Position numbers and translations under genes: made by a program
Assembly: GCF_001625215.2 (NCBI RefSeq)
Contig: NC_030389.2
Coordinates: 43,637,454-43,701,453 of the forward strand
Direction: 5' to 3'
From: Daucus carota subsp. sativus
Taxonomy: Eukaryota; Streptophyta; Magnoliopsida; Apiales; Apiaceae
DNA length: 64,000 nucleotides
Shown here: piece by piece, positions 2,675 to 61,331 of the stretch
Layout of the letters: each line of letters starts with the position of its first letter
Position numbering within the stretch: the first letter of the stretch is position 1
Notes under the pieces: model-generated
What the model saw: only the letters and a program-made list of their open reading frames with translations
Database searches by the model: none
What the model was told of the DNA's origin: nothing

Positions 2675-4024
2675 TCAGGACTTTTTGCTGCAATCTGTAG
2701 CCTGAAATGAAACCACATTTTTCTGAAGATCAAAAGAAATCAAAAAATTCTCCTGCATTATGTTTCCAAAGATGGACATACCAGAAGGCACCGCGGTGAA
2801 GCAAGTCATACCAACATCCACTTCGACAAATGCACTCGACTGGGGGATTTTTATGGTTGCATCTTTAAACTGGAAGGCAACCAATGGCACTTTTATATCT
2901 GAATTCGTTTTGTAGCAAAATTTAAAATTCCCATCCGGATCATCAATGGTTTCGACTCCCATAGATTCCTTCAATGTGGAAAAGATGCCATCATAGAATT
3001 TACCCCCCGGAAGATAAGTTAGTGTAGTCCCAGAGTCAAGGACCATGTTACCTGTTTGAATGTGTTCTCCAGGCTCCTCTGAGGGAACCTCAAAAGTTTT
3101 GTTTCCAATGATAACCTTTTCGAGGTAAATATAATAGTAAGTTTGAGCAGGGGTGGGAAACAATGGCGTTGAAACGGCCTTAAAACTCGAAGCTTCTGCT
3201 TGTTTACCAAAACTAATTGTACTGGACTCATTTTTCAGTATGGAGACCAGACAATAAGAAAATTTCCCCTGAATTGTTTCGTCCAGCTGAGTGATTAACG
3301 AAAGAGGCCCGCCTCCAAGACCGATTATCCCTGAAGTGCTGTTACTAAAAATTCCCTGATTGTCATGTCCACATCCAAAAGCAATTTTTTTAATTGAGGT
3401 TTCCCCGAAAGTGAGTGTCTCTGTAGCTAGGTGACCATTACTGTACGATCCGTCTCCATATGCAACGCGATACTGACATTTATTATGTTCTCGGGTACAT
3501 GGGGTAGGGAAATCTTGAATGGCCTTACACTGTTTAGATGTACATTTCAGAGTCTTGTAACTTGAAGAGGCTCGGAGATCGAATAGGGGATTTTTATGCT
3601 GGAAGCATTTTTTACAAGGCTTGCATTGAATCCAGGTTAGATCACTCCCTGTGTCTGCAATGCCTAGAGTTTCCACAGGCGGTGTACCAATAACAAGTTT
3701 CATTAGGTACTCACCGCTATCGTACCTAATGTAGGATTCGACAGAGCCTGGTGATCTGGACCGGTTACTGCACTTGGACTGGATATGTCTGAGACGAGAA
3801 TTTGAGCGAAGAATGGCATTTTTAAGGCGTTGAGAATGCGTGGCTGATGGATTGTAAAAGGGTGACAAAGGGGACGATTCTCGGTGAATAAGGTCTAGAC
3901 TGAAACCAGCAGAAGCTGTGGAGGAATCATGGACATGAGCATGACTACATAGGAAATGTAGAACCACAATGAAGAATGAAAAGGTGGTGATTTGGAGTTT
4001 CATGGCTGGTATAAGATTAGACAT
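2675..4024 (-). CDS. CDR1-like aspartic protease (A1 family), 449 aa
   Basis: Secreted pepsin-type endopeptidase of the plant atypical/CDR1 group, which acts in the apoplast, often in defence. A hydrophobic signal segment lies at about residues 9-27. The group's LDLIHRESSPLSPFYNPS leader follows at about 44-60. The first catalytic motif DTGSDLTWIQC has Asp124, and the second, LDSGTTLTYL, has Asp330. The flap region has YGDGSYSNG. Between the two motifs the Cys-rich insert typical of nepenthesin-like enzymes is present (CKPCKKC, CTSKQC). The gene has no intron, as is common in this clade, and 449 aa is normal length. A second Met at residue 8 just before the signal segment could be the true start. 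The neighbour at 5602-6930 is a tandem paralogue in the same orientation. I see no defect. The substrate cannot be read from sequence. Confidence 0.93.
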   Translation of the reverse strand: MSNLIPAMKLQITTFSFFIVVLHFLCSHAHVHDSSTASAGFSLDLIHRESSPLSPFYNPSATHSQRLKNAILRSNSRLRHIQSKCSNRSRSPGSVESYIRYDSGEYLMKLVIGTPPVETLGIADTGSDLTWIQCKPCKKCFQHKNPLFDLRASSSYKTLKCTSKQCKAIQDFPTPCTREHNKCQYRVAYGDGSYSNGHLATETLTFGETSIKKIAFGCGHDNQGIFSNSTSGIIGLGGGPLSLITQLDETIQGKFSYCLVSILKNESSTISFGKQAEASSFKAVSTPLFPTPAQTYYYIYLEKVIIGNKTFEVPSEEPGEHIQTGNMVLDSGTTLTYLPGGKFYDGIFSTLKESMGVETIDDPDGNFKFCYKTNSDIKVPLVAFQFKDATIKIPQSSAFVEVDVGMTCFTAVPSGMSIFGNIMQENFLISFDLQKNVVSFQATDCSKKS

Positions 4025-4099
4025 ACATTGGATTTCTGAGCAATTTGTAAGAAAAAAGAGGATATCAAATGCACAATCTGAGATATTCTGTGTATAAAT

Positions 4100-4715
4100 A
4101 TTAATTGCTGCCTGTAATGGGAAGATTTTGTGTATATTGAGATTTGCAATGAATTAATTTGGTGGATACAGTGCTACGTGCATGATTGATTTTAATTGGA
4201 TGATTTATTTGTATACAACAGGTCCTATTATTTATTAGTGTGAGCGGAACTAATCATACATCGACAATCAAGTTTTTGGGGACCTACGTATAGTATTTTG
4301 GGCACCTGATATTTTTCGTATTAATTTTGGATGTCAACGGTATAATTTGAGTGCTTTTTAAATTGGATTATCTAAGATTCATTTGATTGAATTTTATTAA
4401 TTGTATATTTTGACAAATTAGCTTGCAATTGACTTTTAAAGAAGATAACAAATGTTAGATAGCATGCGTTACATAATTAGTAAATATCATATTAAATTAA
4501 AATACAAAGAAAGTTAATGCAGTATTATCATTAAGATATCACAAAGGATTGCAAATAAAATCTCCAGGAAAAGAAGATGTCATGTACTGTATTGGAAGTT
4601 TCACAAATGATTTTTTCTTTAATTTTAGTAAATATATTTTTAATTTTGTGCTAAAAAGATCTGCATATCAACCTATTAATGGTTATGATATTCTAATGAT
4701 ATTATGGTATTTTAA
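4100..4715. other. Promoter side of the first protease, otherwise empty
   Basis: AT-rich spacer upstream of the minus-strand protease. 'tgtataaata' at 4091-4100 lies about 70 bases from the ATG and reads as TATTTATA on the coding strand, a weak TATA candidate. No other gene signal is seen. Confidence 0.4.
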
Positions 4716-5601: not shown

Positions 5602-6930
5602 TTAATTCAGAATTTGTTTGCTGCAATCTGAAGCCTGAAAAGAAACCATCTTTTTCCGAAGATCATAAGAGACCAAGAAGTTCCATTGCATTATGCTTCC
5701 AAAGATGGGGTGAAGAATAGGCCACCGCGTGGGTGCCACAGTGAAGCAACTCACCCCATCCGCCGCTTCAACAAACGTACTCGTCTGAGGAATTTCTAGT
5801 GTGGCATCCTTAAACTGGAAGGCAATCGGGGGTGGTTTCACATTTGCATTTGTTTTATAACAAAAGTGAAAGTTCCCCTCTGGATCATCAATGGTCTCAA
5901 CATCACCCATAGCTTCCTTCAATGTGGCAACAATACCATCATACAATTTCCCGCTTGGAAGGTAAGTCATTATACTCCCGGAGTCAAGAGTTATGAAACC
6001 ACTCTCAATGTACCCTCCACTCTCCTTCCAGGGGACTTCAAAAGACTTATTTCCAACCTTCATCTTCTCAAGGTACAAATAATAGGAAGTCTTATCAAGG
6101 CCTTGAAAGAATGGTGTCGAAACAGCCTTGCCACTCGCAACCTGTGCTTGTTCACCAAACTGAATTGTACTAGTCTCATTCTTGAAAAACGACACCAGAC
6201 AATAAGAAAACCTCCCCTGAATCCACTCCTCCAGCTGACTAATTATTGAAACCGGCCCCCCTCCAAGACCAAGTACCCCGGAACTCATATTCCCATAATA
6301 CTCACCTCGATTGTCATGACCACATCCAAAAACATACTTCTCTATCTTAGTTCTCCCCAGAGTGAGCGTCTCTGTAGCCAGATGACCATAAGTGGCGGAT
6401 CCATCTACGTAAGTATAGTTATATCGACATTTATTATGCTTTCGGGTGCATTTGCCCATGACATTATCAAATGCCTTACACTGCCTGGATGCACACTTCA
6501 AAGTCCTGTAACTCGAAGAGCCTTTCGGATTAAACAAAGGATTTACATGATGGAAACATCTCTTACAAGGCTTGCATTGTATCCAGGTCAGATCACTCCC
6601 CGTATCCACATCAACCAGAACCTCGAAAGGGGGCGTTCCAATGAGCAGCTTCATCAAGTACTGGCCATCGATTTGTCGAACGATGGACTCAGGCACACAT
6701 GAGGATTTTGACTTAGATAGGCTTCTACACTTGGGATGGAAAGATTTCGAACGTGCAAGAAGATTTCTGAAGCGCTGGGAATGAGTGGCTGATGGATCAT
6801 GAAAAGGTGATAGTGGGGAGAAGTCGCGGTGGATGAGATCGAGAGAGAAACCAGTAGGCGGGGATGATTCTAGAGAGGCATGAGCTTCACTGCAGAGGAA
6901 GAGTAGAAGTGAGATCAAGTGGATCGTCAT
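5602..6930 (-). CDS. CDR1-like aspartic protease (A1 family), 442 aa
   Basis: Tandem paralogue of the protease at 2675-4024 and, like it, intronless. The signal segment is MTIHLISLLLFLCS at the N-terminus, cleaved probably near SEA. The leader SLDLIHRDFSPLSPF follows at about 29-43. The first catalytic motif DTGSDLTWIQC has Asp109 and the second, LDSGSIMTYLP, has Asp316. In the second motif the usual DSGT or DTGT is DSGS, a conservative Thr-to-Ser change that should keep activity. The Cys-rich nepenthesin-type insert (CKPCKRC, CASRQC) is kept. The protein ends in SDCSKQILN, close to the SDCSKKS tail of its paralogue. A copy of this gene's start region lies upstream at 7495-7629. It is likely a secreted endopeptidase whose target is unknown. 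Confidence 0.93.
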   Translation of the reverse strand: MTIHLISLLLFLCSEAHASLESSPPTGFSLDLIHRDFSPLSPFHDPSATHSQRFRNLLARSKSFHPKCRSLSKSKSSCVPESIVRQIDGQYLMKLLIGTPPFEVLVDVDTGSDLTWIQCKPCKRCFHHVNPLFNPKGSSSYRTLKCASRQCKAFDNVMGKCTRKHNKCRYNYTYVDGSATYGHLATETLTLGRTKIEKYVFGCGHDNRGEYYGNMSSGVLGLGGGPVSIISQLEEWIQGRFSYCLVSFFKNETSTIQFGEQAQVASGKAVSTPFFQGLDKTSYYLYLEKMKVGNKSFEVPWKESGGYIESGFITLDSGSIMTYLPSGKLYDGIVATLKEAMGDVETIDDPEGNFHFCYKTNANVKPPPIAFQFKDATLEIPQTSTFVEAADGVSCFTVAPTRWPILHPIFGSIMQWNFLVSYDLRKKMVSFQASDCSKQILN

Positions 6931-7003
6931 GGCTGCAAAACATCAAAATGCAGAGTCTGGCGATGATAACAAGTATAATCAATTCAACAAGTTATGAATA
7001 GTA
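6880..7003. repeat. Source of a duplicated protease 5' end
   Basis: First codons and 5' leader of the 5602-6930 protease. The same text, with several differences, reappears at 7495-7629, including the 'catggctgcaa' start-codon context and 'catcaaaatgcagagtct'. Confidence 0.8.
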
Positions 7004-7633: not shown

Positions 7634-9055
7634 TGTTGGGTTCCGTCCCGAATTTTTAAATAAATTAAGAATCCTAATTGGAGAAGGTATCTTATTTATG
7701 ATAATTGAGTTAATCCGATTCTTGGTAGAATATTAATTGTGGAAGGATTTCTATCAAAGATAGGAAAAGATGGTAATTATCATAAATAGGATTCGAAGTA
7801 AATTAGGATTAGAATATTTTGGATGCCTATAAATATAGTTATTTGTAGGAGTTTTGTGTATTGCAAAAGTTAGAGAGTTGTGTGAGAGATACACAAGAGA
7901 GAACTTTTGTGATCAAGTTGAGGGGTTTGTATTGTAATACATTCATATTTAGTGGATTTGTGGTTTTACCCTCGGGTTTTCACGTTAATTGTTTGTGTTC
8001 TTTACTTTCGTGCTTAATATTGTGTTTGATTAACGTCAATCTATAGTGGATGCGATCCTAACAAACTGGTATTAAGAGCTCAGGTTCGAGGAGTAGATTC
8101 GACGTTAAAGTGGAGACAATCACGAAGTTGGCTGTTTGTGTTGTTAGTTGGTCTTGTGTTGATTTTTTTTTTTGGCTTGATGGAGGATCTGAAATCGTTA
8201 AGGATTGATGCACCCAAATATGATGGGAAGACGGATTTCACTATGTGGCAATTAACCGTCAAGGATGTGTTAATTCAACAAGGACTTGATGATGCCTTGG
8301 AGAAAACAAAGCCAAAAGAGATGAGTGATACAGATTGGGCGAAAATCCAGAAGAGAGCGGCGAGTACAATCAGGCTGGCACTTGCACCCGATGTGAGATA
8401 TAACGTGTTGAAGGGGTCGACACCAAAAGAGATATGGGACAAGTTAGCAAGCATATACGCTTCAAAGTCGTTGACCAACCGACTTAATTTGAAGATGGAG
8501 TTGTACTCATTAAAACTGGATGAAGAAGGTAATCTCCATGATCACATTAGTTGTTTTAATCAGCTGGTATGTCATCTGGCTAATGTTGGTGAGCCGATGA
8601 AAGATGAGGAACAAGTTTTGTTGCTGTTGTCATCATTACCGAAGTCCTTCAAATATTTTAAGCAGACGTTGTTAGTGGGGAGGACGTCTCTTACGCTTGA
8701 TGATGTGTTAAAAGCGTTAAGAGATAATGAGAGGATGACAAAGGATGCTGTTTCTCAAAGTGGTGAGACAGTTTTAGCTGTCCAAAGTGCTGAAAGAGGG
8801 AGGAGTCGCGCGCGCAATGATCCGCAAGGAAGAAGTAAATCTCGGCCGAGTAAGAAGGATATGAGCACTGTTGAGTGCTATTATTGTGGTGAAACAGGTC
8901 ATATGCAGATGTTCTGTCCGAACTTTAAAGAACACTTGAGATCCTTTAAAGAGATGAAGGGAAAGAACAAAGTTGAAGATGCGCACTCTACACATGTGAT
9001 CTCAAGTGATTTAAAGTTGAACAAAGTTAAAGAGACACATATTCATTCCGACTAA
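7634..9055 (+). mobile_element. Copia-type LTR retrotransposon fossil (5' LTR, PBS, gag)
   Basis: Old virus-like element. A 430-bp 5' LTR runs from TGTTGG at 7634 to AACA at 8063. A primer-binding site resembling the initiator-Met tRNA complement (TGGTATTAAGAGC) lies at about 8067-8079. A gag region (about 8180-9055) has a UBN2-type capsid and a CCHC zinc knuckle (CYYCGETGHMQMFC). No protease, integrase, reverse transcriptase or 3' LTR follows, so the element is truncated and broken overall. Age cannot be judged without a second LTR. Confidence 0.88.
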
Positions 9056-22379: not shown

Positions 22380-22591
22380 ATGTCTACGTGGCAGCTTCAC
22401 TCAGACGCCGAAAACAATCTTCGGTGGAGCCGTCTCCCCGATGACCCCCAAACCGAAGTCCAAACCGCCGCACCGACTCAATTACGACGTCGTCTTCCTT
22501 CCATTTCCGATCTAGCGCTCAAAGGTCTCTCTCTCCTCTCTCTCTCTCTCTCCCTCCCTCCCTCCCCCCTCTCTCTTCCTCCCTCCCTCCC

Positions 22592-22635
<44 letters not shown>

Positions 22636-25600
22636 TCTCTCCATATTTATATACGGTATTTGATTGTTTGATATTGTGTAATTAGGTTATTCGAAGTTGA
22701 AGGAGAGTAATAATAACAATGATAGTGTGAATGAGTCGGGTTACCAGATGTTTCGGACCGGGTCGGGCAAGCCTTTAGTTGCCAATCAGTCTTCATTATC
22801 AAAAGCATCAGCTATGCTGAGCGAGGTCGTATTTGATCAAGGTTTGTCGTTTTCTAAGTCAATATGTAATTTGTATAATTTATTTAGGCTCGCGCTCGGG
22901 TGAAAACAATTTTAATATAACAACAAATGTGCTGCACTTACAATAATTTGCTAGACAATGTATTCAAACAATGCAGTATGTAATTTAATTTGGTTATAAT
23001 TAGATATTAAAAATTTTTTGAAATTTGAACTGTTGTGAGAATGTTGTGATTGATAACTTTGTTTCTGTTTACAGCTGTGTTCGGATTTTAGATCATAGTT
23101 TCTATGTTGTAGAACTAAAATACCGGGAGTGCAGTTTCCAGTGCCAATTCCTAAGTGTTTCTCTCTACATATATATTTTTGCACATATTTAATATGTGAT
23201 ATTATTTTACATAGGTTATCCGGAGCTAAACCAGAGCAATGCTAATAGTGTGAATGAGTTGGGTTATCAGATGTTTCAGACCGGGTCAGGTAATCCTGTA
23301 GCTGTCAATCAATCTTCATTATTAAAAGCATCAGCTATGTTGGGCGATATCATATCAGATCAAGGTTTGCAGTTTCCAGTGCCTATTCTTAAGTGTTTCA
23401 CTCTACTATTACATACTTGCGTATATGTAATATGTGATTGTTTGATTTTTTTTTTTTTTAAATAGGTCATTCGATGATAAACGAGAGTAATGCTAATAGT
23501 TTGAATGACTCGGGTTATCAAATGTTTCGGACCGGGTCGGGTAAGCCCGTAGCAGTCAATCAGTCTTCCTTATCAAAAGCATCAGCTATGTTGAGTGATG
23601 TTGTATCGGATCAAGGTTTGTGGTTTTCTAATTTATAGTTCATGCATCTGCATAACAGAAATTGTTCTGCGCTTAAAATAATTTTCACAATAATAGATTC
23701 AAAATGTGCAGCATGTCATTTGGATATTAAATTGGTTATAAATATCTATTCGGTAATGTTAGAAATGAGAGCTGATTGATGATTTTATTTCTGTATATGG
23801 GTTGGACAAGATAAATAACCTGTATGGACTTTATACTTACAGCTAGTATCGGATGTTAGATGTTTGTTTTCATATAGTAAAACTCAAATACCACGAATGC
23901 ATTTTCTGGTGCCTATTCTTAAGTGCCTCTCTCTATCTATACATATTTGCACATATTTGATGTTTGATTGTTTGATGTTCATTTTACTTAGGTTATTCGA
24001 AAATAAGTGGGAGCAATGCTAATAGTGTCAATGAGTCGGGTTATCAGATGTTTCGGACTGGGTCTGGTAAACCAGTAGTTGTCAATCAATCGTCACTACT
24101 GAAAGCATCAGCTATGATGAGTGACGCTGTATCTGATCAAGGTTTGTGTTTTCTAATTTAATTTCTATTACATCTAGGCTCATGCTCAGGTGAGAACAAT
24201 TTTTGTGTTACAACAATTGTTCTACACTTCTTATAATTTGCAGAACAATGTATTTAATAAGTGCAGTATATGTAATCATACATTTAATTTCTTTTAAGTT
24301 TATTTAGGATTTTTAATGTTTCTATTTTTTTATTGTGGATTGGTACTGTGGTTATATTGTTTTTGTGCTGTTTGAGTGCATAAAAATATGCAATATGTAA
24401 TTTTTATTTGGTTGTTAATGTTCTGTTGAAAGTTTTAGAAATGTGAATTGGTTAAGAGAATGTTGGGATTGATATATATTTTTCCTGTAGTAGAGATCGT
24501 ACAAAATAAATTACGCATATGAACTTTTTACTTTAAGCTGTCAGATGTTAGATGCTTGTTAGTTTCTGTATAGTAAATTCGAATACCCAGAATGCAGTTT
24601 TCTGAGTTCTGTGTAATTTTACCAAATAAGAGTTTGCACTTAACGTTGATTGTCCAAATCTATGATGTCTCCTATTAACCGGGTAGAATAAATCTAAAGA
24701 TGAATTTATAGTTTTATACTGTGTAAGAGGTTGTAAATAATGGTTTGTAACAAAAAGTGAATATGAGAATAAAGTTTTGAAGGAGTTGTATTGCTTGTCT
24801 TTCATCATTTTAAATTGATTGTTTTTATTCAAATGTTACTATATATAGTAATTTATTATATGATTGTGCTTGATGATAATATATTCAGAAGGTGTTCAAC
24901 ATTATGAAAAGTGGGTCTTGTAAGAATACAAATTTTATTATATATATATATCAGCTTTCAGTATTAAGTATTTGCTTTTCATTTTTTGATTCCCCCTAAA
25001 CCACTTACCTTGATTTTAAACTTTTGCAAGCATTTGCAATATAATATTAAAGGCAAAAAAACTTACTTGTTTACATCTAGCAGCTCCATCGCTGCTAGCT
25101 ACACCCTCTAGTAGCTATACTAGCCAATCCATTCACTTCAATGGGCTTGACTCCCTATATATAATTTTACATAAGCTGGAAATCCTGGCCATATTTGCCT
25201 AACCGATCACCAGTCCCCCCTAGCTACTTCAGAATTTATATTAATTTTACTACGGACCACTTTCTCCAACAAACAGACACTAGACACTCTCATTCAGCTT
25301 TCATTTTTCTTTGAATATAATAAATAATAATGAAATGGGTAGCCAATTCAGCAAAACATGGTTGGAGGAAAACATAAATTTGACTAGTGTCCTTGGAGAT
25401 GATCGTATAGTGTATTAGCTATATTTCGTTGCTAATTGCATAAAAGTCATACGAGGATGAGAATGTAGACTGGAGAGGCATGGTGCTTGATATACCTACG
25501 ATGATATGACAGAGATATCCTGTAAAATTTATCATGTTTTTAGTGGAAGTAACTTTATTGACATACATTGATTTATAGCTAATTACTGTCCGTTTTAGAT

Positions 25601-28600
25601 GTTGTGAATAATTACTTTGGGACAAAATAATCAAATATTTTGCATTATATTGTTTATCAATGCAGGATTTACAAAGCTCACTGGAAATGTTGGACGACCT
25701 CTTAGAAGCCCTTCAACATTTCGAAATGGATTCAAGAATTCACTTGCTTTAAAAAGGTCTCCTCTTTCGAAAGCTTCATCAATTCTTACCAATGAAGCTG
25801 AGCCTACCGTGGTCACAGGGAGCGGGGTTACTGTAGATACAGGTATTGCTTTTCTACATTCAAATAAATCTAAATTATTTTATATTCTTATGTTTTCCGT
25901 TCCCACTATTACATCATTCTATTGTCTGGTTTCCCTTTCCTCATTACATTAATTTATTCTTTGGTTTCCCTTTCCCCATTATCATTCTATTGTTTGGTAT
26001 AGTTGCTGCATTATTATTTTATTTAACTGTTACATAGTAACTATTACATAATAAGTAAAGAGATTAATTGGAGGCATGAAACTAATTAGGTGTAACTTGA
26101 TGGAATCTCAAGTAGTTACCTGTAATACTGTTTGCTGACTGGCTGAGAGAAGAATAATAAAAATATACATTTTCAAATTAGATGTACCAATATTCTAATT
26201 TCTGAGCCAGTATATGTTCCTTCACGCATGGTATATTAGTAAATTTTCCTGACTTTTAGTTATGTGCAGGCCAGGTAAAAGCAATAGATAGCGCATGCAA
26301 TTTTGGAAATTCAATGTTCCAGACAGGGTCAGGGAAAACAGTAACTATATCTACCTCAGGTCTTGCAAGAGCCCAAAAATTGTTGTGCTTGAAGGACAAT
26401 CACACTCATCAAGGTTTTGAAGGAATGATGCAGCAGTTACATGCCATACCTAGTAATCAGCAAAGTTTGCATCATTTGGGTTTGGAGATGGGTGTTGCTG
26501 ATAAGCAGTCAAAAGACAGCATCTCAAGTCTAAGATCTCCTCTCAAGGTAAGGTCTGAAACATCAGGGAGTGAGTTGCTGGAGGTTACTCCAGATAGTGT
26601 GCATTCTATTTCAAGACCATCTTCTATTAAGTTTCATACTGCTGGTGGAAGATCTATATCAGTTTCTAGTAATGCCTTGCAACGTGCAAGGAGCCTTCTT
26701 GGAGACCCAGAGTTGGGAAGTTTCATGAATGAAGGGGATGCTGGTGAGCCTGTCTTTTCCATTTTTAAAGACAGAAAATCGAATATGAATTTAAAAAAAT
26801 CATATTGCTCAGATACATGTGTTTCGGACCAACACTCTGTAACAAGAAAACGAGTGGCAAAGAACTTCATATCTCCTCTGCGTCCAACTTCCTCCCAAAA
26901 ACAATCCTTGGTTAATGTAGGTTCAGGGAAAAACTTGATCAGAAACTTTGATGCAGAGGCCCATGAAAGCACTACTTGTAATGATGTGAAGGGCTGCCAA
27001 AAGTATCCTAAGAATAACGATCCCTATTCCTCCGATAATACAACACGCGAAGACAATATAGCTGGTTCTGGTTTCCAAAAAGACCCACACAAAAAGCAAA
27101 GAGGTTGGCCATTAGTTGATATCTCAAACACCACTGACATGGGTGATAGAAGTAACAAACAAGCTGTGGCTGTAAAGAGAGTAGTGGATAGGAGGAGCTC
27201 TGGTTCTTTCAAGAAGCCCCGTGTTTCTAAATTTATCACCCCCCTTAACAATGAAATTCCATATACTGAAAATGGTATCTTGAGATCTTATTTTGACTAC
27301 ATTCTTTTTCATTTTCTTCTTCTGTTCAAATTTTTTAAATAATATTGCAAGGAACCTGTTTATATAGGTTCACTAGCCATAGATCCTGAAGAATCTTCTT
27401 ACAAGAATAAGTTTCCTGGTCGATACCCTTTCCAGGCTACTCGAAAGTATGTCAAAGAGTATTTTGGTGCGCCGCCATCTGTCAATACTACGGTACACAA
27501 GCACTGTTTGTTTTCTTTTGACATATTGATTTTTTGCCATCAATTATTGATTTGTCCTTTTCTCTTTGGTAAGTTGGAGCATTTGCCAGAATGTATTAGA
27601 ACAATGAATCCAGATAGAGCAGAGAAACATTGTTTCCCTAGTGAATGTGGTTCTGATAGTGTTGGGAAAGAAGCTTTTTCTGCAATGTTGCTGCAATCTG
27701 GAGCTTCCATGAAATATATTTCAGACACGTAAGTTGCCGGCTTGCTTTACTGACCCTTTCTTCTCATTATGGTCATGTACGTATTTCCTTATTTGCGGAA
27801 AATTGTTTTGTTGTGTCCAGTCTAAAGATGTAATTTTGAACTAGATAATTTCGGGATGCTTCTTGAAACATCTAATAATGATTTGGTTTTGATAATGCAC
27901 TAGTTATGAATGTACAAGAATACAAGTCATTAATTATGTAACAACTTAGAATCAGGCGAGAATACATTTACTAATAAATACATACATTTGAAGTGTGTTT
28001 ACTTAATTGAAGCTGCTCTCTAGCTTTTTGACTCATTTCTGATGGTGATGGATGGTTTTGTATACTATCCTCGGTCTTCTAGGTTGCTTCAAGTATTTGT
28101 GTATGAATTTTCGTAAAGTCTGCTTATTTATTTACTGCAATTTGCTCTGTGTAGTTGGGTTACAAATCACTATAAGTGGATTGTCTGGAAGCTTGCATGC
28201 TATGAACGATTTTATTCTGAGAGGTATCTGACCGTTAGTAATGTTATGGAAGAACTGAAATACAGGTATATACAGTTCTTATATGATTTTTATTTATATA
28301 ATTCCTTTTATTTTATAGAACAAGTTTTTGAATTATTTTATCATTTGCTTAGATATGATAGAGAAGTAAATCATGGACATCGATCAGCTATAAAAAGAAT
28401 CTTAGAAGGAGATGCACCACCGTATTCTGTACTGGTACTTTGCATATCATCCATCCAGAGAAATACAGAGGCAATAATCAAAAATATCAGTAACTCACAC
28501 GGAGTTGATAAAAGCAAAGTTGCAAATGTGGAATTGACAGATGGGTGGTAAATGTCTTCTACACTTCTTTTGTATTACAATTACCTAACCATAAAGCTCA

Positions 28601-31600
28601 AGTTATTTACTTCATAGGTATGCAGTGAATGCTGTACTAGATGCACCATTGTCTAAAAAGCTGGACTCCGGGAAATTGTTTGTCGGACAAAAACTTAAGG
28701 TGTTTCATTTAATTTTTTTAATCCATAATTTCTTACGATTTAGTCTTAAATTCTTTTTTCCCGGACTCCCATCCTTACTGTTTATGCTGTCTGAAGATCT
28801 CAGGAGCAGGACTAAGTGGTTGGGCTGGTCCAGTTTCACCTCTCGAGGTAGTCCCCATAATTTCATGATAAAATAGCAGAATTGAGTTTATTTTGTATAG
28901 TTTCCTAAATCCTCCTTTCTTTATAATTAGGTGCCGAGCACCGTCAGCTTGGTTTTGCACATTAATGGAACTTACAGAAGTCATTGGGCTGAACGTTTGG
29001 GCTTCTGTAAGCATTATTTGAGTTCTACTTGTAATTTTTTTTACTCAAAGTTCTAACACATCTAATGAACTATGTATAATCAGGTAAGAGTGGATGTGCT
29101 CCACTAGCATTTGACTGTATCAAGAGTGGTGGAGGAGTAATTCCCAGCACATTTGTCGGAATACAAAGAATATACCCTGTTCTATATCGGGAAAGGTTTA
29201 TTTTACTGCACAGTACTTTGGTTGAAGTCACATTCAAGTCCCTATACCATAATAAAATTGACATGCAGACACTCAAACGGTTTATATAAATGCAAAGCCA
29301 GTCAAGAGATTGTAGGAGTGAATTAGGTTTTGGTTAAGTACTACAGGGAATATATATGCTGACATATGATCAGATGGAACTCGCGTATCATAAAATTTAC
29401 TTTTTCAATATTGTAAAAGTCTTTCTGGAAATCACATGTCATTGAGTTTAACCCGATACTTAAGTATACTTGGCTGAGCACTCTGATGTTCAGGAGTACT
29501 CGGATTATGGATTACAGGGACACAATAATTACAAGGATCACCCTTACAAATTTTACTTAATTTTTCACCTTCACTGTACTAATAAATTATATCAAAAATC
29601 TGTTGAATGCTTAGAGCTTTGCTATCTATTAATTGTAGGTTAAGTGATGGGGAATACACTGTAAGGTCAGAGAGGATGGAAGCTAAGATGCAGCAGTTAT
29701 ATAACCAAAGGTGAATTTTTTTTTTCATTTCTCTTGCAAACAGAGAATCAGCTAAGCTAGTTACTTTTTTAACATATACAGACCAATTTGCCTAGTAATT
29801 ATAATTACTTTGAATTGGAATTTTTTGGCATAATTGAATCTTAGAACCGTTTGATACTTTAATTTAGTTTTTATTAGACAAGAAACATCTTGAGAATTTA
29901 AAATTGTTAGGTCAGTTAACTTGTAGCTGGTATTGTGATTTTTCTTGTTCCTGTTGGTTCCTGTCGTCTTTAACATTCATGGTCATGAAACTGAAGCTAT
30001 GCGTCAGTCATCTGGGAGTAAACTATTATCTTATTGCTGTAAGATGTAACTATGTTCTTGACAAAAAACTGTGTTCAGAGACTCTATGATGATATTTTTT
30101 TTTTATGTATTTACGTCCTCTATCTTAATGCAGGCGCTCTGAAGTTGCAGAAGAAGTTATATCCGAGTTACAGAGGGCAGATGCAGATATACTTATAAAT
30201 AGTGATGGAAGTGAAGAAGCGGCAAAAATCTTTAAGATTCTTGAAACATCTGCTGAACCAGAAATTCTGATGGCTGGCATGAGTTCGAAGCAACTAAAAT
30301 CTTTGTCTATTTATCAAGCAAAACTAGAGGTGTGATTTTGTATGTTCATTACATGGTAATGTAAATTTAGAATCAGTTAATTGATTATGATTGGTATGAT
30401 TAGGAAACAAGGCAGTCAAACATTCATCAATCTATCGAAAAAGCTTTTGAAAATTCTGGTCTTAGTGGGAGAGATGTCACCCCATTTATGAGGTTGAGTG
30501 TAGTCGGGTTAACCACAAAAATTGGTCAGGAGAAGTGTTACCCGCGAAAAGGCTTGATTACGATATGGAATCCGACTGAGGAACAGGTGATTACAAGTTT
30601 GTCCTGCAGTGCATATTCCGACCTTAATTTATCCTAGAGCTGTTCCCCTTTCTGCACTTTATTTATTTTTCAAGTTTCTTTGGAGCTTATCACTAATTCT
30701 CAGGTGGATTTACTATGTGCGGTTGCAGAAGTTAGAGTTGGTTGAAGGACAGGCATATGCTGTTTCAGGACTTGTAGCATTTAATTCTGGTTCAGATACC
30801 CTTTACTTGCAAACACGAGGACCTACCACCAAATGGCGGCACTTATCTTCCTCGGCCTTGGAACAGTATCAGTAAGTCACGTTTTCTTTTAATTTACCTC
30901 TATATCCTTTATACAGTAGCTCACAACTGTCCTTGGCAGGCCCTTCTATAAACCACGGAAACCTGTATCGTTGTACAATTTAGATGAAGTTCCTCTCTCA
31001 AGGTAACATTTCTCCATATTAATGTACAACAGTTGGTTTTTATAAAGTGACTATATTTGGCATCTCACATGTTCCAATGCATTCTTCAGCGAATTTGATA
31101 TTGCTGGATTTGTCATTTTCGTGGGTGAGGTTCATGCAACTGCTAATCAAAGGAAGCAATGGGTTTTTGTGACAGACTGCTCCGTACATGGATCACATAC
31201 TAACAGGCCATCTGATGATTTACTTGCAATTAGCTTCTGCGCACCAACTAGTGGTCATGATTTATATCTACCAATCAGCCATAACCTTGTTGGATCAACG
31301 GTGAGTTAATGATGGCAGCACTCTGCTTATACACATTATTTCCTTGCAAACAATTTGAGGCTGTTGTACTATACGTGAACATAATATTTCTAGCCACATA
31401 CTTTCTGCAAATTAATATAATGTTTCAAGAGGTAAAGGTACTTTATTGACCTTAGATGGATAAGAGATCCCATTTCTCACATTAAACAAGTGAACTTATA
31501 CTGAGAATTATGATCAATGATTTAACTGTATGCTAATCGTGTCACTAGTTCTGCTTAAGTGATAAAGTGCTTGATCCAGGTTTGAATAAATACAAGAAAA

Positions 31601-34617: not shown

Positions 34618-34748
34618 TATTTGTAATTGCATATATGGTTGCATATGGTTGTATTCAGTTGCATATGGTTGCATTCAGTTGATTCTATTGTATTCTAATG
34701 GCCCCGCCAGGGGCACACCATACATCTGTTGTTACTTACAGTTTTCAG

Positions 34749-35030
34749 TTGCAAAAGTTGCAACTGAGGTTGCAACTGAAGTTGCAAAAGTTGCAACTGC
34801 AGTTGCAACTGAAGTTGCAAAAGTTGCAACTGCAGTCAACTGAAGTTGCAAAAGTTGCAACTGCAGTTGCAACTGAAGTTGCAAAAGTTGCAACTGCAGT
34901 CAACTGAAATTGCAAAAGTTGCAACTGCAGTCAACTGCAGTTGCAAAAGTTGCAACTGCAGTTGCAAAAGTTGCAACTGCAGTTGCAAAAGTTGCAACTG
35001 CAGTTGCAACTTTTGCAACCTCATTTGCAA
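34749..35030. repeat. GTTGCAACTGCA / GTTGCAAAA minisatellite
   Basis: Units of 9-15 bp built from GTTGCAA, ACTGCA and ACTGAA alternate about twenty times. Because GTTGCAAC and CTGCAG are self-complementary, the array can fold on itself in many registers. It keeps open frames on both strands, but these are low-complexity (Leu-Gln or Cys-Asn repeats) and not taken as genes. Confidence 0.93.
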
Positions 35031-35731
35031 CTTACTGTTTTCAGTTGAACTAGTTGCAATTGCAGTTGCAACCGTTGCAACTTTTCATTTTTATTTGCAA
35101 CTTTTGCAACCTCATTTGCAACTTTTACGGCTGCGCCGCCCAAGGTTGCAAATGAGGTTGCAAAAGTTGCAAATCGTATTTTTGAAAAAAAAAATTTATG
35201 AAAAGGTATTTTTAAAAACAATGAAAAAGATGGTAGTATTTTTAAAAAAATGATTTTACAAATGGGTATTTTTAAAAAGATCCCAAAATTCAATTGTTAA
35301 ATTTTTATTCAGAAAAAAATTAAAATAATTTATGAAACTAAATCTTTTAGGAGCATTAAAATACATGTCAAATTTTCGTCCTCCAAAGTAAACTAAGGTT
35401 AATAACGCTAAAAAGAATAATATAATGTTAATAATCAAATCCGAACCTAAGGTGAGTGACTAAAAAAAATCCGAACCTAACATTAGTGACAAAAAGGAAA
35501 AAAATTATATTTCGATGGTAAATTTCTAAACAAACAATAAGTTGGGTGGCAAAAAAATCTATTTTCCTTTTTTCAAACAGATATCGGTTAATCAAATTTG
35601 AAATGGCGTGGCGTCACATGACGTGACGTTTGATATTTTAAAATTCGTAATTGGTTAAATAAACTTGTGATATTTTGAAATTCTTTATTGATAAAACAAA
35701 TGTGAAGGTTTTCGTATTATGGTTTTTCAAT

Positions 35732-37251: not shown

Positions 37252-39745
37252 TTAAGAAGCTGCCAAGAGTAATACAAAAACAAACATCAATACACCTATA
37301 GGTTTCTTTGATGCCCCAGAACTAACCTTCTTATTAGTACTAATTGGTAGTATCATGATTTCAAATTTGCACTCTGGAGTTGATGGATCACTAGTAGTGA
37401 CCACCGAAAGATTTGGAAACTTACAGGCAGTCTCGAGCTGGTTCTGCTGCTGGTAGTATTTGTTAAAAGCATACGATATGTTCCCACGTTCATCAAGATT
37501 TGCACAAGATGATCCGTATTCCAGGCTAGTACAATCTGCGTTTTCACAAGCGTAGCTCACACTAGCTGCAATCCCTGAATCATCAAGACTTGCTGAGGAT
37601 GACATGACACACCATTTCTTTGAGAGGTACTGAACATTGGTTGCTGGTACTAGGCCTTTTCCTGCTGTTCCAAGTTTGAGATCATATTTAGGTGTGCCAT
37701 CAAAGTAGAAAATTCCCCAATGCCGCTCAAAGTTACCTGGTTGGATGCTCTTTGCATCCTCGTCGATGAGGCTGAATAAATAGGCATCTATAGGGCCTGG
37801 TTTCATAGGAGTACCTTTGGTCATATGTGACATGAAGCCTTGGTTGAATCTCTGAGCATACTTGAGGTTTGCATTACCATTGCCATCAGTGGGCCACCCG
37901 ATCTCTCCAACTATGATCGACATGTTTCCATACCCGTTTTTCTGGAGGGCCCAGACAAGTGTGTCATAATTTGCATCAAATACATTGTCATAAACCAGGC
38001 CATTGTCAGTAATAGGGGATGGATAGCCGTCGAAGAAGGCATAGTCAACAGGGAAGTTGGCGTCGTTATAGAGGCTTATAAAGGGGTATATGTTGACAGT
38101 AAAAGGGCCCAAGTTATCACTCAAGAACTTGACAATTTTTAGCATGAGGTCATGAATGTCAGGTCGGAAATCACCAGTAGATGGCATGTCGGTTGAGCTT
38201 TGGTACACATCAGCGTTTAGAGGGACAGTCACTTTCACCTGATTAGCAAGACCAGCCTTTATCAGAGCAGCCTGAATATTTTGGAGGGCAGGTAAAGTTG
38301 TATCAAGAAACGTTCCGTTGAATGCAGCAAGGAATGGTTCATTTCCAACTGCAACATACCTTTCAGAGGACATTGAGAACAGTCAGTTAAGGGAAGAATC
38401 AGCATTTCATATGCTAGCTGAGACATTTGTATGATACATATAGTAGGATATGCTTCGAAGAACTACAGACACAGCAAACATTACATGGGAATACAATTCA
38501 GACAGCTTAACGGAGATTTATAATTGTTAGACTGTATGTAAACGTTTACTTAACAAATCTCAGAAGTCAATTTCTCTGCACTTCTGTATCATCTAAAATT
38601 CGACAGGTTTACTTGTGTAGATGTAAAACAATCTGGTAATTAACGCATATGATAGCATCCTGTTGTAAACCAGAGGGAGAAAACTACTCGCTACATTATA
38701 ACTTCACATCAGAGTTTCAGTGTAATAATCTACTGAAACATCAGAGTTTCAGTGTAATAATCTGATAAATTTCAGTTCTGGAATCGAATAAAGGACAATT
38801 GCAAATAGCCATCAAGCAGATATGGGTAAGTAATCATATCCCACATGGTATTAAATACTTCAACTCTATTTCATGGACCACAAAGAACTCCTAGCCTGAT
38901 ACACATATCTGGTAGGCTACACATAACATTTATATCGTATACATCTCAAATTAGAACTGCCACCAATAATAGCGCGATCACAATAGATTGTCTATATTTT
39001 ATTTTTCAATATGCATATAATATCTGCCGGCATGACCAACACTTATCAACAAAGATTACAAATTAAATTATTCGCTTAAAATAAAATGCAAGCATCATTA
39101 CCATTAAATTACTGAAAGTCGGTAGATGATTTGGCTCCACTAAACCACAGTTTAAATTGTTTACACTTATCACAATATAGTTCATATCATCAAATAACAC
39201 TCAAACATACCAAACAAGCACCAAACATCAAGTCACCATATCATCAGACCAGAATAAAGTTCAATTACCACTTGGCATCAAATTAGTACTTGAAAGACAC
39301 CCGAAAGAAAGAATCTCATCAAATCAAACACGAAACCGCACGAAAGAAAATCTAAAAGATTGAATGAATGATGAGCAAACATGTACCTAATGTTGACACT
39401 GTTGGAGGAGATATGAGTGGAGACATTCTTGGCAACCCAATTTTCAGCAGCAGAGACACTATTAGCCAAAGAATAAAGCATTTCATTAGGAATCCCAACC
39501 ATGACTTCCAATCCAGAGCCTTTAAGAGCACTCAAAGTGACAGAATCTGCATCAAACAGCTTCACTTTCTGGAACCCATTGTCCTTAAGAAGCTTCACAG
39601 TAGTTGATAACTCTAGTGGATGTGTGGCTTGTGTTCCCCAATTAGCTCCAATGCCATTCACAACACTAGCCACCCAAAAAGCCCATAAAAACACAGCACC
39701 AATCATCATCTCATGATTGCTTCTTGGACATGAATGCACACCCAT
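37252..39745 (-). CDS. GPI-anchored beta-1,3-glucanase (GH17 + X8), 488 aa
   Basis: Two exons on minus, 39387-39745 and 37252-38359, join in phase (CAACATTAG|...|GTATGTTGC). The enzyme hydrolyses 1,3-beta-glucan (callose) at the cell surface. The signal segment is at about residues 15-31, with MM at 13-14 a likely alternative start. The GH17 barrel begins [13 protein letters not shown]. The acid/base Glu127 is in VAVGNEPF, and the nucleophile Glu272 is in [10 protein letters not shown]. An X8/CBM43 callose-binding module with its Cys pattern ([25 protein letters not shown]) covers about 369-450. A hydrophobic tail ([14 protein letters not shown]) fits a GPI signal. This makes it a plasmodesmal or wall glucanase of the E13L/PdBG class. 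A piece of exon 1 has been copied to 43300-43415. The intron (38360-39386) has a 38-bp tandem duplication near 38700-38765. Confidence 0.94.
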
Positions 39746-55500: not shown

Positions 55501-57514
55501 ATGAATTACTTGAATTCAGCCGATGAAACACTGCTAATTGCACTTACAATGCCAGGATCTCTTTGCTTCCTCGTCGAAGCATTGCCATAAAAGAATCCAA
55601 CAACGTCTTGGCTCCAGCTTATGAGTACCAAGGCTTTTGGTTCCGGAGTGTAGCTCTCAGAGGCCTCCTCTGGGCTCAAGATCACTTCAAGCCTCACCCT
55701 GCAGCTACACTAGTTGCTTCCTACCCAAAAACCGGAACCACGTGGCTAAAAGCCTTAACTTTCTCCATAGCTACTCGAAACAGATTTGATCTTTCTAGCA
55801 ACCCATTGAAGGCATCAATATCTCATCAGTGCATTCCTTTCCTGGAACTTGAGATACCTAGAAGCCCGTCTCACAAGTACTATCCTGATGTTCCGCTCTT
55901 CTCTACACATGTTCCTTACACGTGTTTGCCTGACTCGATCCCTGCTTCTGATTGTAAAATACTTTATATATGGAGGGATCCCACGGATACTTTTGTGTCT
56001 TGGTGGCATTTTGCCCGAAAGGTTGCTCCAGAAGACATGGAATTCGTTCCCATTGAGGAGGGGTTTCAGCAGTTTGCTGAGGGGTATTCACTCTATGGTC
56101 CTTACTGGGAGCAGGGCCTGCTCAAGAGATTTTGGGGCCTTAGGCCAATCATTAAAGTGAGGCCTATTTTTTCAAAAAAAATCTAATATTTTATTAATAA
56201 TATAAATACAAAATTTTGCGATATTTAAATATTACAAACATAAAATCACCCTCAACACATTATAATATATAATATTTTATACTATTAATTTTATTGATTA
56301 AGTCTCTTAGTATATAAAATTAATATTTTTATTTATAATTTTAATATAAAAATGATTTAGATAATATATTAGAATTAGGCATTAATAAAATAAATAAATT
56401 ATTCTAAATAAATATATATAGTTATATTGAAATCAGATGCAAACACAATTAAATACTATATATATTAAAACTAAATTGATTATATAGTATTTATAATTTA
56501 TATAATTTATTTAGGATTCCATTTTAAAATAAAAATTTGTATTTAATTATTATATTTTAATATTCAAAATTTAATTCTAGGGTTTTGATGTTAGTTGTTA
56601 AATAAATATTAAGGTTTTTTGAAATTAATAAATAAGATGTATAAATTAAAAAAATAACTTTTGGAGATAATTTTATTAAATATTTAGATAATTTCTAATA
56701 ATGAATATAATTATGTCATTAAAATCAAAATTTAAAAGGTAAATAAACCGAAGTGAAATGAAATAAAATCTCTAATTTTTTTAACACCTATAATTAGATT
56801 ACATCACATAAAACAATAATTTACATATTTTTAGATTTTAGATTCAAGTCAAGTATTTATTAAGTTAGTGCAGGAAACAAAACATGATTAATACTACTAA
56901 TATTAGTATTTTAATTATTTTTTGATAAAAATTGATCACATAATTTTTTTTCTACAAGATTTAAATATAAATTTTAATTTTTTATAATATTATGAATTTT
57001 TTTTTTCTTGCATATACATAATTACATACTAAGATAAATTATGGGGCCTCTCACCCACGGGGGCCTTAGGCGATCGCCTAAATGGCCTTCAAAGAGCGCC
57101 GGCCCTGACTGGGAGCATGTACTTGGGTACTGGAGAGCAAGCCTAGACAGACCCGGGCAAATATTGTTCCTAAAATATGAAGATCTGAAACTTAATACGT
57201 CGTTTTATGTTAAGAAGCTGGCTGACTTCATTGGCTCTCCTTTCTCGATTGAAGAAGAAAGAGATGGCGTCGTGGAAAGAATTATAGACCTCTGTTCTTT
57301 CAAGCATATGAGTGGTCTGGAGGTGAACAAGAGCGGTAAGCATAGTAATGGTCTCGATCTTGTTACTCTTCGGAATAGTACATATTTCAGGAAAGCCGAG
57401 GTTGGGGACTGGAAAAATCACTTGCCTGCTAAAGTGAAAGAGCAGATGGACCAAATCATGGAGCTAAAACTAAAAGATTCTGGTTTAACTTTCGGGAGCA
57501 CTTCCAACTCTTAA
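55501..57514 (+). pseudogene. Sulfotransferase copy 1, broken by a hAT insertion
   Basis: Very close paralogue of the gene at 60321. The ATG at 55501 is in place, but one base is missing near codon 8 (GATGAAAC where the paralogue has GATGGAAAC), so the frame is lost at once. The later ATG (Met30 of the paralogue) is ATA here. From about 55563 the frame is open through YPKTGTTWLKALTF and CRD-like WRDPTDTFVSWWHFA to PYWE, where a 996-bp hAT element (56112-57107) interrupts. After it the frame resumes with HVLGYWRASLDRPG and runs to the normal end, including AEVGDWKNHLP. Apart from the target duplication the coding text on both sides is undamaged. Not functional as it stands. Confidence 0.93.
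56112..57107. mobile_element. hAT element in a sulfotransferase exon, 996 bp
   Basis: Ends CAGGGCCTGCTC and (inverted) CAGGGCCGGCGCTC, with 'ggggccttaggc' text just inside each end. The flanking 8-bp repeat ACTGGGAG is perfect (56104-56111 and 57108-57115). The interior is AT-rich and non-coding, so the element is non-autonomous. The perfect duplication and undecayed exon on both sides point to a recent insertion. Confidence 0.95.
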
Positions 57515-60257: not shown

Positions 60258-60320
60258 GGTAACTTCAGAAAACCAAAATGTGCATTACAGATCTACAAGC
60301 AATAGGCATCATCTTGTAGC

Positions 60321-61331
60321 ATGAATTACTTGAATTCAGCCGATGGAAACACTACTAATTGCACTTACAGTGCCAGGATCTCTTTGCTTCCTCATCGAAG
60401 CATTGCCATGAAAGAAGCCAACAATGACTTGGCTCAAGCTTATGAATACCAAGGCTTTTGGTTCCTGAAACAAGCTCTTAGAGGCCTCATCTGGGCTCAA
60501 GATCACTTCAAGCCTCACCCTGCAGCTACACTAGTGGCTTCCTACCCGAAAACCGGAACCACGTGGCTAAAAGCCTTAGCTTTCTCCATAGCTACTCGAA
60601 ACAGATTTGATCTTTCTAGCAATCCATTGGAGACCTCAATATCTCATCAATGCATTCCTTTTCTGGAACTTGAGATACCGAGAAGCCCGTCTCACAAGTA
60701 CTATCCTGACGTTCCGCTCTTCTCTACACATGTGCCTTACACGTGTTTGCCTGACTCGATCACTGGTTCTGATTGTAAAATAGTTTATATATGCAGGGAT
60801 CCCACGGATACTTTTGTGTCTTGGTGGCATTTTGCCCGAAAGAGGGCTCCAGAAGACGTGGAATTCGTTCCCATTGAGGAGGGGTTTCAGCAGTTTGCTG
60901 AGGGGTATTCACTCTATGGTCCTTACTGGGAGCATATACTTGGGTATTGGAGAGCAAGCTTAGACAGACCTGATCAAATTTTGTTTTTAAAATACGAAGA
61001 TCTGGTACTTAATACGTCGTTTTATGTTAAGAAGCTGGCTGACTTCATTGGCTCTCCTTTCTCGATTGAAGAAGAAAGAGATGGCGTCGTGGAAAGAATT
61101 ATAGACCTCTGTTCTTTCAAGCATATGAGTGGTCTGGAGGTGAACAAGAGCGGTGAGCATAGTAATGGTCTCGATCATGTTACTCTTCCGAATAGTATGT
61201 ATTTCAGGAAAGCCGAGGTTGGGGACTGGAAAAATCACTTGCCTGCTAAAATGAAAGAGCAGATGGATCAAATCATGGAGCTGAAACTAAGAGACTCTGG
61301 CTTAGCTTTGGGGAGCACTTCCAACCCTTAA
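60321..61331 (+). CDS. Cytosolic sulfotransferase (SOT), 336 aa, intact
   Basis: Single-exon soluble enzyme that moves a sulfo group from PAPS to a hydroxyl of a small molecule, in plants flavonols, hydroxyjasmonate, brassinosteroids or others. The PAPS 5'-phosphosulfate loop is YPKTGTTW (residues 75-82). The likely catalytic His137 is in STHVPYT. The 3'-phosphate contacts are in CRDPTDTFVSWW (Arg159, Ser167). The closing signature is RKAEVGDWKNH (296-306), where the common RKGxxGDW Gly is Ala, as in copy 1. Length is normal for plant SOTs. The start is supported by an upstream TATA box and alignment with copy 1. It is the only apparently working member of a three-copy cluster. The acceptor cannot be predicted. 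Confidence 0.95.
   Translation: MNYLNSADGNTTNCTYSARISLLPHRSIAMKEANNDLAQAYEYQGFWFLKQALRGLIWAQDHFKPHPAATLVASYPKTGTTWLKALAFSIATRNRFDLSSNPLETSISHQCIPFLELEIPRSPSHKYYPDVPLFSTHVPYTCLPDSITGSDCKIVYICRDPTDTFVSWWHFARKRAPEDVEFVPIEEGFQQFAEGYSLYGPYWEHILGYWRASLDRPDQILFLKYEDLVLNTSFYVKKLADFIGSPFSIEEERDGVVERIIDLCSFKHMSGLEVNKSGEHSNGLDHVTLPNSMYFRKAEVGDWKNHLPAKMKEQMDQIMELKLRDSGLALGSTSNP

Follow-up and report, generated by a model that had tools for sequence, protein, structure and literature searches.

Variation in the number of BRC repeats, the RAD51-binding repeats of BRCA2, is already known from published accounts of Drosophila and Trypanosoma, and a high repeat count from those of rice. In Drosophila dmbrca2 the repeat number is altered by expansion and contraction, for which unequal crossing-over was proposed, and is polymorphic within species; the repeats are described, in the part of that account we draw on, without mention of introns between them (PMC2882388). 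BRCA2 of Trypanosoma brucei carries a tandem BRC expansion, reported for one lineage, which consists of nearly identical 132-bp units of recent origin (PMC2408642). Among plants, rice OsBRCA2 (LOC_Os01g07110) is credited with six (PMC7701097) or eight BRC repeats, with FxxG predominating over FxxA according to the latter report (PMC12611145), and Arabidopsis BRCA2A/B is described as having four BRC repeats followed by a canonical DNA-binding domain (PMC12412785). The locus studied here lies in a window of 64,000 nucleotides from carrot (Daucus carota subsp. sativus, contig NC_030389.2) and shares with the rice protein the multi-BRC N-terminal region with predominant glycine and with the Arabidopsis proteins the order of BRC repeats and DNA-binding domain, of which the helical and OB1 parts were found. 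In contrast to the four repeats of Arabidopsis, it contains seven BRC or BRC-like repeats, one of them degenerate. As in Drosophila and T. brucei the repeat number has been altered, but the units are exon-plus-intron segments of about 525 bp, diverged and apparently old. Copying of plant BRC repeats by such whole units was not found in the part of the literature covered by the search.

We consider the locus to be, very probably, an ordinary N-terminal RAD51-binding region of a plant BRCA2 in which one BRC exon together with its intron was duplicated in tandem to four copies long ago. The gene lies on the plus strand with its ATG at position 22380 and comprises the following features (U, BRC units; I, introns; positions are those of the window).

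22380–22524, plus strand: exon 1 of BRCA2, reads MSTWQLHSDAENN..., ends in phase 1 and in frame with U1; start codon predicted
22526–22641, plus strand: TC-rich microsatellite in the first intron, adjoining the left side of the array; period 2, 59 copies, 76% matches
22686–22841, plus strand: U1, BRC repeat 1 (FRTG), 156 bp, phase 1-1, two extra codons; Pfam PF00634 16.7 bits
22842–23214, plus strand: I1, intron copy, 373 bp; 74.8% identical to I3 and 72.8% to the start of I4
23215–23364, plus strand: U2, BRC repeat 2 (FQTG; GNP instead of GKP), 150 bp, phase 1-1; Pfam 24.9 bits
23365–23465, plus strand: I2, shortened intron copy, 101 bp; about 270 bp of the interior gone
23466–23615, plus strand: U3, BRC repeat 3 (FRTG), 150 bp, phase 1-1; top Pfam score, 30.2 bits; PDB 7qv8_D, E 0.01
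23616–23991, plus strand: I3, intron copy, 376 bp, by alignment to I1 and the start of I4
23992–24141, plus strand: U4, BRC repeat 4 (FRTG), 150 bp, phase 1-1; Pfam 21.8 bits
24142–24605 (right edge approximate), plus strand: start of I4; homology with I1 and I3, plus an additional stretch, from alignment and shuffles
25666–25842, plus strand: U5, degenerate BRC-like repeat (FRNG...SPLSKASSIL, about 25719–25793), phase 1-1, by alignment to U1–U4
26270–27276, plus strand: exon 7 with two more BRC repeats (FQTG, about 26314–26394; FHTA, about 26629–26706), PF00634; 3′ end predicted
28117–29056, plus strand: DNA-binding domain, exons for its BRCA-2 helical and OB1 parts; the positions bound the open frames and do not mark exon ends

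All introns between exons 1 and 7 have GT...AG borders, U1–U5 each start and finish in phase 1, and the joined exons 1–7 form a stop-free reading frame. Downstream, three of six frames tested matched Pfam families of the DNA-binding domain, namely PF09169 (helical; E 1.2e-9) and PF09103 (OB1; E 7.6e-10, 1.3e-4 and 1.5e-4), and three further frames, lying later in the gene, where OB2, Tower and OB3 were looked for, gave no family at E ≤ 0.001. These domains and the BRC matches bear out the naming of the gene as BRCA2 by the initial annotation, an earlier reading of the same DNA. It had also described four consecutive phase 1-1 exons of about 150 bp with BRC repeats, and their coordinates and GT...AG introns were recovered; the array stands, and the picture has to be widened by the fifth, diverged exon U5 at 25666–25842. 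Rfam gave no match anywhere in the window.

The Pfam profile of the BRCA2 repeat (PF00634, cut-off 20.3 bits) was exceeded by U2, U3, U4 and exon 7, i.e. by four of six queries, the two stretches in exon 7 together reaching 57.2 bits (E 1.1e-15). U1 remained under the cut-off (E 0.0052), and for U5 no Pfam family appeared even at E up to 10. The closest solved chain by sequence is 7qv8_D, a BRCA2 peptide of 35 residues, found with U3. The FxxA/G motif reads FRTG, FQTG, FRTG and FRTG in U1–U4, FRNG in U5, and FQTG and FHTA in exon 7, so that strict FxxA is present in only one of the seven repeats and FxxG in all four amplified units. In the aligned moss, Arabidopsis, human and fly repeats FxxA is reported to be fully conserved, which, as far as that report goes, means that FxxG is not universal in plants (PMC12412785); FxxG also occurs in fungi (PMC10684384), and in a Leishmania repeat the change from alanine to glycine is reported to have cost three-fold affinity (PMC9162458). 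The second motif, defined by two hydrophobic residues followed by x and E/D, is formed by MLSE, MLGD, MLSD and MMSD in U1–U4; the corresponding ILTN of U5 departs from this pattern.

Several features tie U5 to the other units despite an identity of 25–33% across the exon. Its start, GFTKL, resembles their GYSKL, and the alignment scores of its core with U1–U4 were reached by 0, 2, 0 and 0 of 1000 shuffles. Synonymous distances of U5 to U1–U4 are saturated (2.2, 3.5 and two undefined) and clearly larger than those among U1–U4. U5 thus appears as a much older relative of the four units, which implies that the symmetric BRC exon existed before the amplification. The stretch GSGK, present in U1, U3 and U4, is replaced by FKNS in U5. 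In moss, one repeat is reported to have lost binding when the glycine after the motif was lost (PMC12412785). Provided that this glycine is the same residue, U5 is probably a weakly binding or non-binding remnant.

The relationship among U1–U4 extends beyond the exons, which are 66–80% identical in protein and 79–83% in DNA, figures by which the earlier description as nearly the same has to be read. A repeat search recorded four copies of 215 nt spanning exon and intron, three of them with 71–77% identity to the reference copy, and the best blastn segments for the six unit pairs have E values from 5e-41 to 2e-63. In pairwise alignments I1 corresponds to I3 over 318 columns and to the start of I4 over 313 columns, and I3 is 69.8% identical to the start of I4 over 325 columns. 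Measured against 200 shuffles, I1 aligned to I3 at z 19.9 and to the start of I4 at z 11.1; in the control alignments of I1, z was 0.5 with the remainder of I4 (24641–25665) and −2.1 with the intron after U5. The introns were therefore copied along with the exons, in tandem and in the same orientation, as is characteristic of tandem exon duplication. Since exons and introns are both copies, whole units of about 525 bp were duplicated in tandem. The earlier statement that the intervening introns are copies as well holds for I1, I3 and the start of I4, while I2 retains just about 100 bp. In I2 the donor GTT(TG) abuts the block TGCAGTTTCC, which is located about 270 bp inside I1 and I3, and TG are two bases common to both sides of the joint. 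This fusion of the donor to a deep-intron block indicates that the interior was deleted and the donor kept, with the break just inside the splice donor. A single duplication of a long-short pair, hinted at by the unit spacing of 523, 251 and 526, was considered and rejected, as I4 has the long form; the short I2 is thus explained by a single deletion.

The array reaches further to the right than the end at 24300 given in the initial annotation: similarity to I1 and I3 ceases only near 24605. On the left side, similarity extends into the first intron to at least about 22660. The score of this first-intron tail was reached by 0 of 1000 shuffles with I3 and by 15 of 1000 with I2; with I1 it was unsupported (125 of 1000, compared to 245 for an unrelated control), and the left border of the unit may be placed there as a weakly supported assignment. 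As a guess, the break of the array might have arisen in the adjoining TC tract, for which the support from alignments is uneven.

Survival of the intron copies makes it possible to measure how old the units are. Synonymous distances (dS, Nei-Gojobori) among U1–U4 are 0.37, 0.45, 0.86, 0.40, 0.62 and 0.80; their bootstrap intervals are wide, ranging from 0.14–0.77 to 0.42–1.79. Intron distances are 0.19–0.39, with identities of 70–83% in five comparable pairs; the pair I2–I4 was dropped, because it crosses the array border (51 columns, Jukes-Cantor (JC) distance 0.56; 36 columns and 0.91 in a second alignment). The longest identical run between unit pairs measures 15–21 bp and none exceeds 21 bp. 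For dating, 7e-9 and 1.5e-8 substitutions per site were assumed each year, which translates the dS and intron distances into 6 to 61 million years. At these rates the duplication to four copies would be old, roughly 6 to 60 million years. The comparison of aligned units by pairwise synonymous distances, which the initial annotation had itself proposed, consequently speaks against its view of a recent change, as do intron distances and identical runs. The high distances and the absence of long identical runs likewise mean that the sequence gives no sign of any unit gained on the time scale of cultivars, between which copy number had been expected to differ.

The tree of U1–U4 is star-shaped, with no supported split. 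Nine informative sites are distributed 3:3:3 over the three possible four-unit trees, and in the IQ-TREE analysis the sole split received 49% bootstrap, with an internal branch of 0.016 compared to terminal branches of 0.14–0.23. Rooting with U5 was tried and abandoned: its saturated distances to U1–U4 provide neither a root nor an order of events. The star shape would fit a short burst as well as exchange between units. Order and mode of the duplication steps are therefore unreadable from the tree. Of the earlier proposal that units were added one at a time by unequal crossing-over, the tandem copying of whole exon-plus-intron units is upheld, and the star tree gives no order or mode for the single steps; unequal crossing-over would be a reasonable mechanism.

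An amplification that is recent and still active, with unit numbers varying among cultivars, is suggested by the arrangement of exon and intron as tandem direct repeats and by precedents in other organisms. D. pseudoobscura is reported with 7, 9 or 11 BRC repeats, and in D. yakuba/santomea 57 of 61 strains carry the long and four the short form (PMC2882388); in T. brucei the BRC number varies among strains and alleles (PMC2408642). However, the T. brucei repeats, as the recent case, are reported to average less than one base of difference per repeat (PMC2408642), and near-identity of this kind was not found among U1–U4, for which the dS values, the 70–83% identical introns, the short identical runs and a tree without any close unit pair make a recent origin quite improbable. 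Conversely, the units might be far older, at the family level or beyond, and resemble each other through past gene conversion instead of a common recent origin. The conflicting sites of the star tree suit a history of repeated exchange no less than a burst, and U1 and U3 are closer in exons than in introns (0.18 vs 0.31), though selection accounts for this difference too. Neither a long identical tract nor a clear mosaic block is visible, a result of little power with nine informative sites, and we regard gene conversion as an unlikely, if by no means negligible, explanation. Tandem repeats are also prone to assembly errors, which raises the question of duplicated or collapsed units. As U1–U4 differ at 17–21% of exon sites and more in introns, a false copy among them, made in assembly, is unlikely, an argument that says nothing against the collapse of a further identical unit; overall, an assembly artefact seems highly improbable. 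The old tandem duplication of a single unit remains the preferred reading.

For the analysis of selection, changes were counted against the majority codon of the four units, leaving out the two extra codons of U1 (a 6-bp insertion). Taken together, U1–U4 show purifying selection: the 33.3 synonymous sites carry 30 changes and the 116.7 nonsynonymous sites carry 32 (ratio 0.30, p 8e-6). Constraint is tighter on the BRC core, with a ratio of 0.20, than on the linkers, with 0.43. Individual ratios are 0.64 (U1), 0.86 (U2), 0.20 (U3) and 0.11 (U4), and only those of U3 and U4 differ significantly from one, while U1 and U2 alone showed no significant constraint (p 0.50 and 0.77). In the first count, synonymous to nonsynonymous changes amounted to 8:21 in U1 and U2 compared to 22:11 in U3 and U4. 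When the six tied columns were resolved at random, the contrast had a median p of 0.021 and a maximum of 0.074, with 0.064 for the core and 0.080 for singletons. We take this as no more than a hint of relaxed constraint on U1 and U2, which is sensitive to ties. Given the low Pfam score of U1 and the lack of significant constraint on U1 and U2 taken singly, the four units need not all be functional.

In the mechanistic scenario we propose, the ancestral unit would have been a single phase 1-1 exon with one BRC repeat and its downstream intron, which was copied in tandem. Each added unit would supply about 50 residues and thereby one more RAD51-docking peptide on a flexible linker, and the remaining frame would be untouched by gain or loss of units owing to the symmetric phase of the exon. 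In analogy to other BRCA2 proteins, the F-x-x-[A/G] peptide of each repeat presumably fills the self-association pocket of RAD51, and several repeats might jointly raise the avidity for RAD51 destined for loading onto single-stranded DNA. The four BRC repeats of moss are reported to bind RAD51 jointly 100-fold better than single ones (PMC12412785), and in mice a single repeat can reportedly suffice for viability (PMC12803100). The exons with their phases, the copied units, their divergence and the selection on them are shown by the analysis; we infer the splicing as drawn, the binding of RAD51, an advantage from additional copies, and a route by unequal crossing-over.

The earlier claim that units can be removed without breaking the frame proved correct for exons 1 to 7, where all 32 of 32 combinations of omitting any of the five symmetric exons U1–U5 are stop-free. 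Regulated skipping might accordingly fix how many RAD51-binding repeats each protein has, and five symmetric exons in a row with 32 open combinations are in line with this idea; yet a symmetric phase is an equally plain outcome of duplicating a 1-1 exon. Moreover, the frame of U2 stays open through the short I2 (23365–23465) until a stop formed by the final three bases of this intron, and retention of I2 would truncate BRCA2. Skipping as the means of fixing the repeat number is, in our estimate, improbable. We are similarly doubtful about a more elaborate version, in which alternative splicing would set the RAD51-binding valency by isoforms with 2–7 BRC or BRC-like repeats, varying by tissue or DNA damage; the better constrained U3 and U4 would then form the core, and U1 and U2 would be additions subject to drift.

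The array offers a clean view of one route to new RAD51-binding sites in BRCA2, the tandem copying of a phase 1-1 exon together with the intron that follows it. Within a plant group, relatives that have the units could be compared with others that lack them, to ask why BRC numbers differ among BRCA2 proteins. Taken singly, the case confirms a known plasticity and will hardly surprise the specialist.

Elsewhere in the window, a minisatellite with nested units of the AGTTGCAA/AACTGCAG type and periods from 12 to 64 is located downstream of BRCA2 at 34746–35082, followed by a minus-strand frame with a glycosyl hydrolase family 17 and an X8 domain (37255–38382). A Copia-type gag frame (Retrotran_gag_2) lies on the plus strand at 8030–9052. 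Two tandem aspartyl-protease-like genes occupy 2678–4153 and 5605–6942 on the minus strand (TAXi_N, Asp, TAXi_C). Two tandem sulfotransferase genes are found on the plus strand at 55527–56183 and 60306–61328; the open frame of the former covers part of the domain (profile positions 4–148 of 255), that of the latter nearly the whole.
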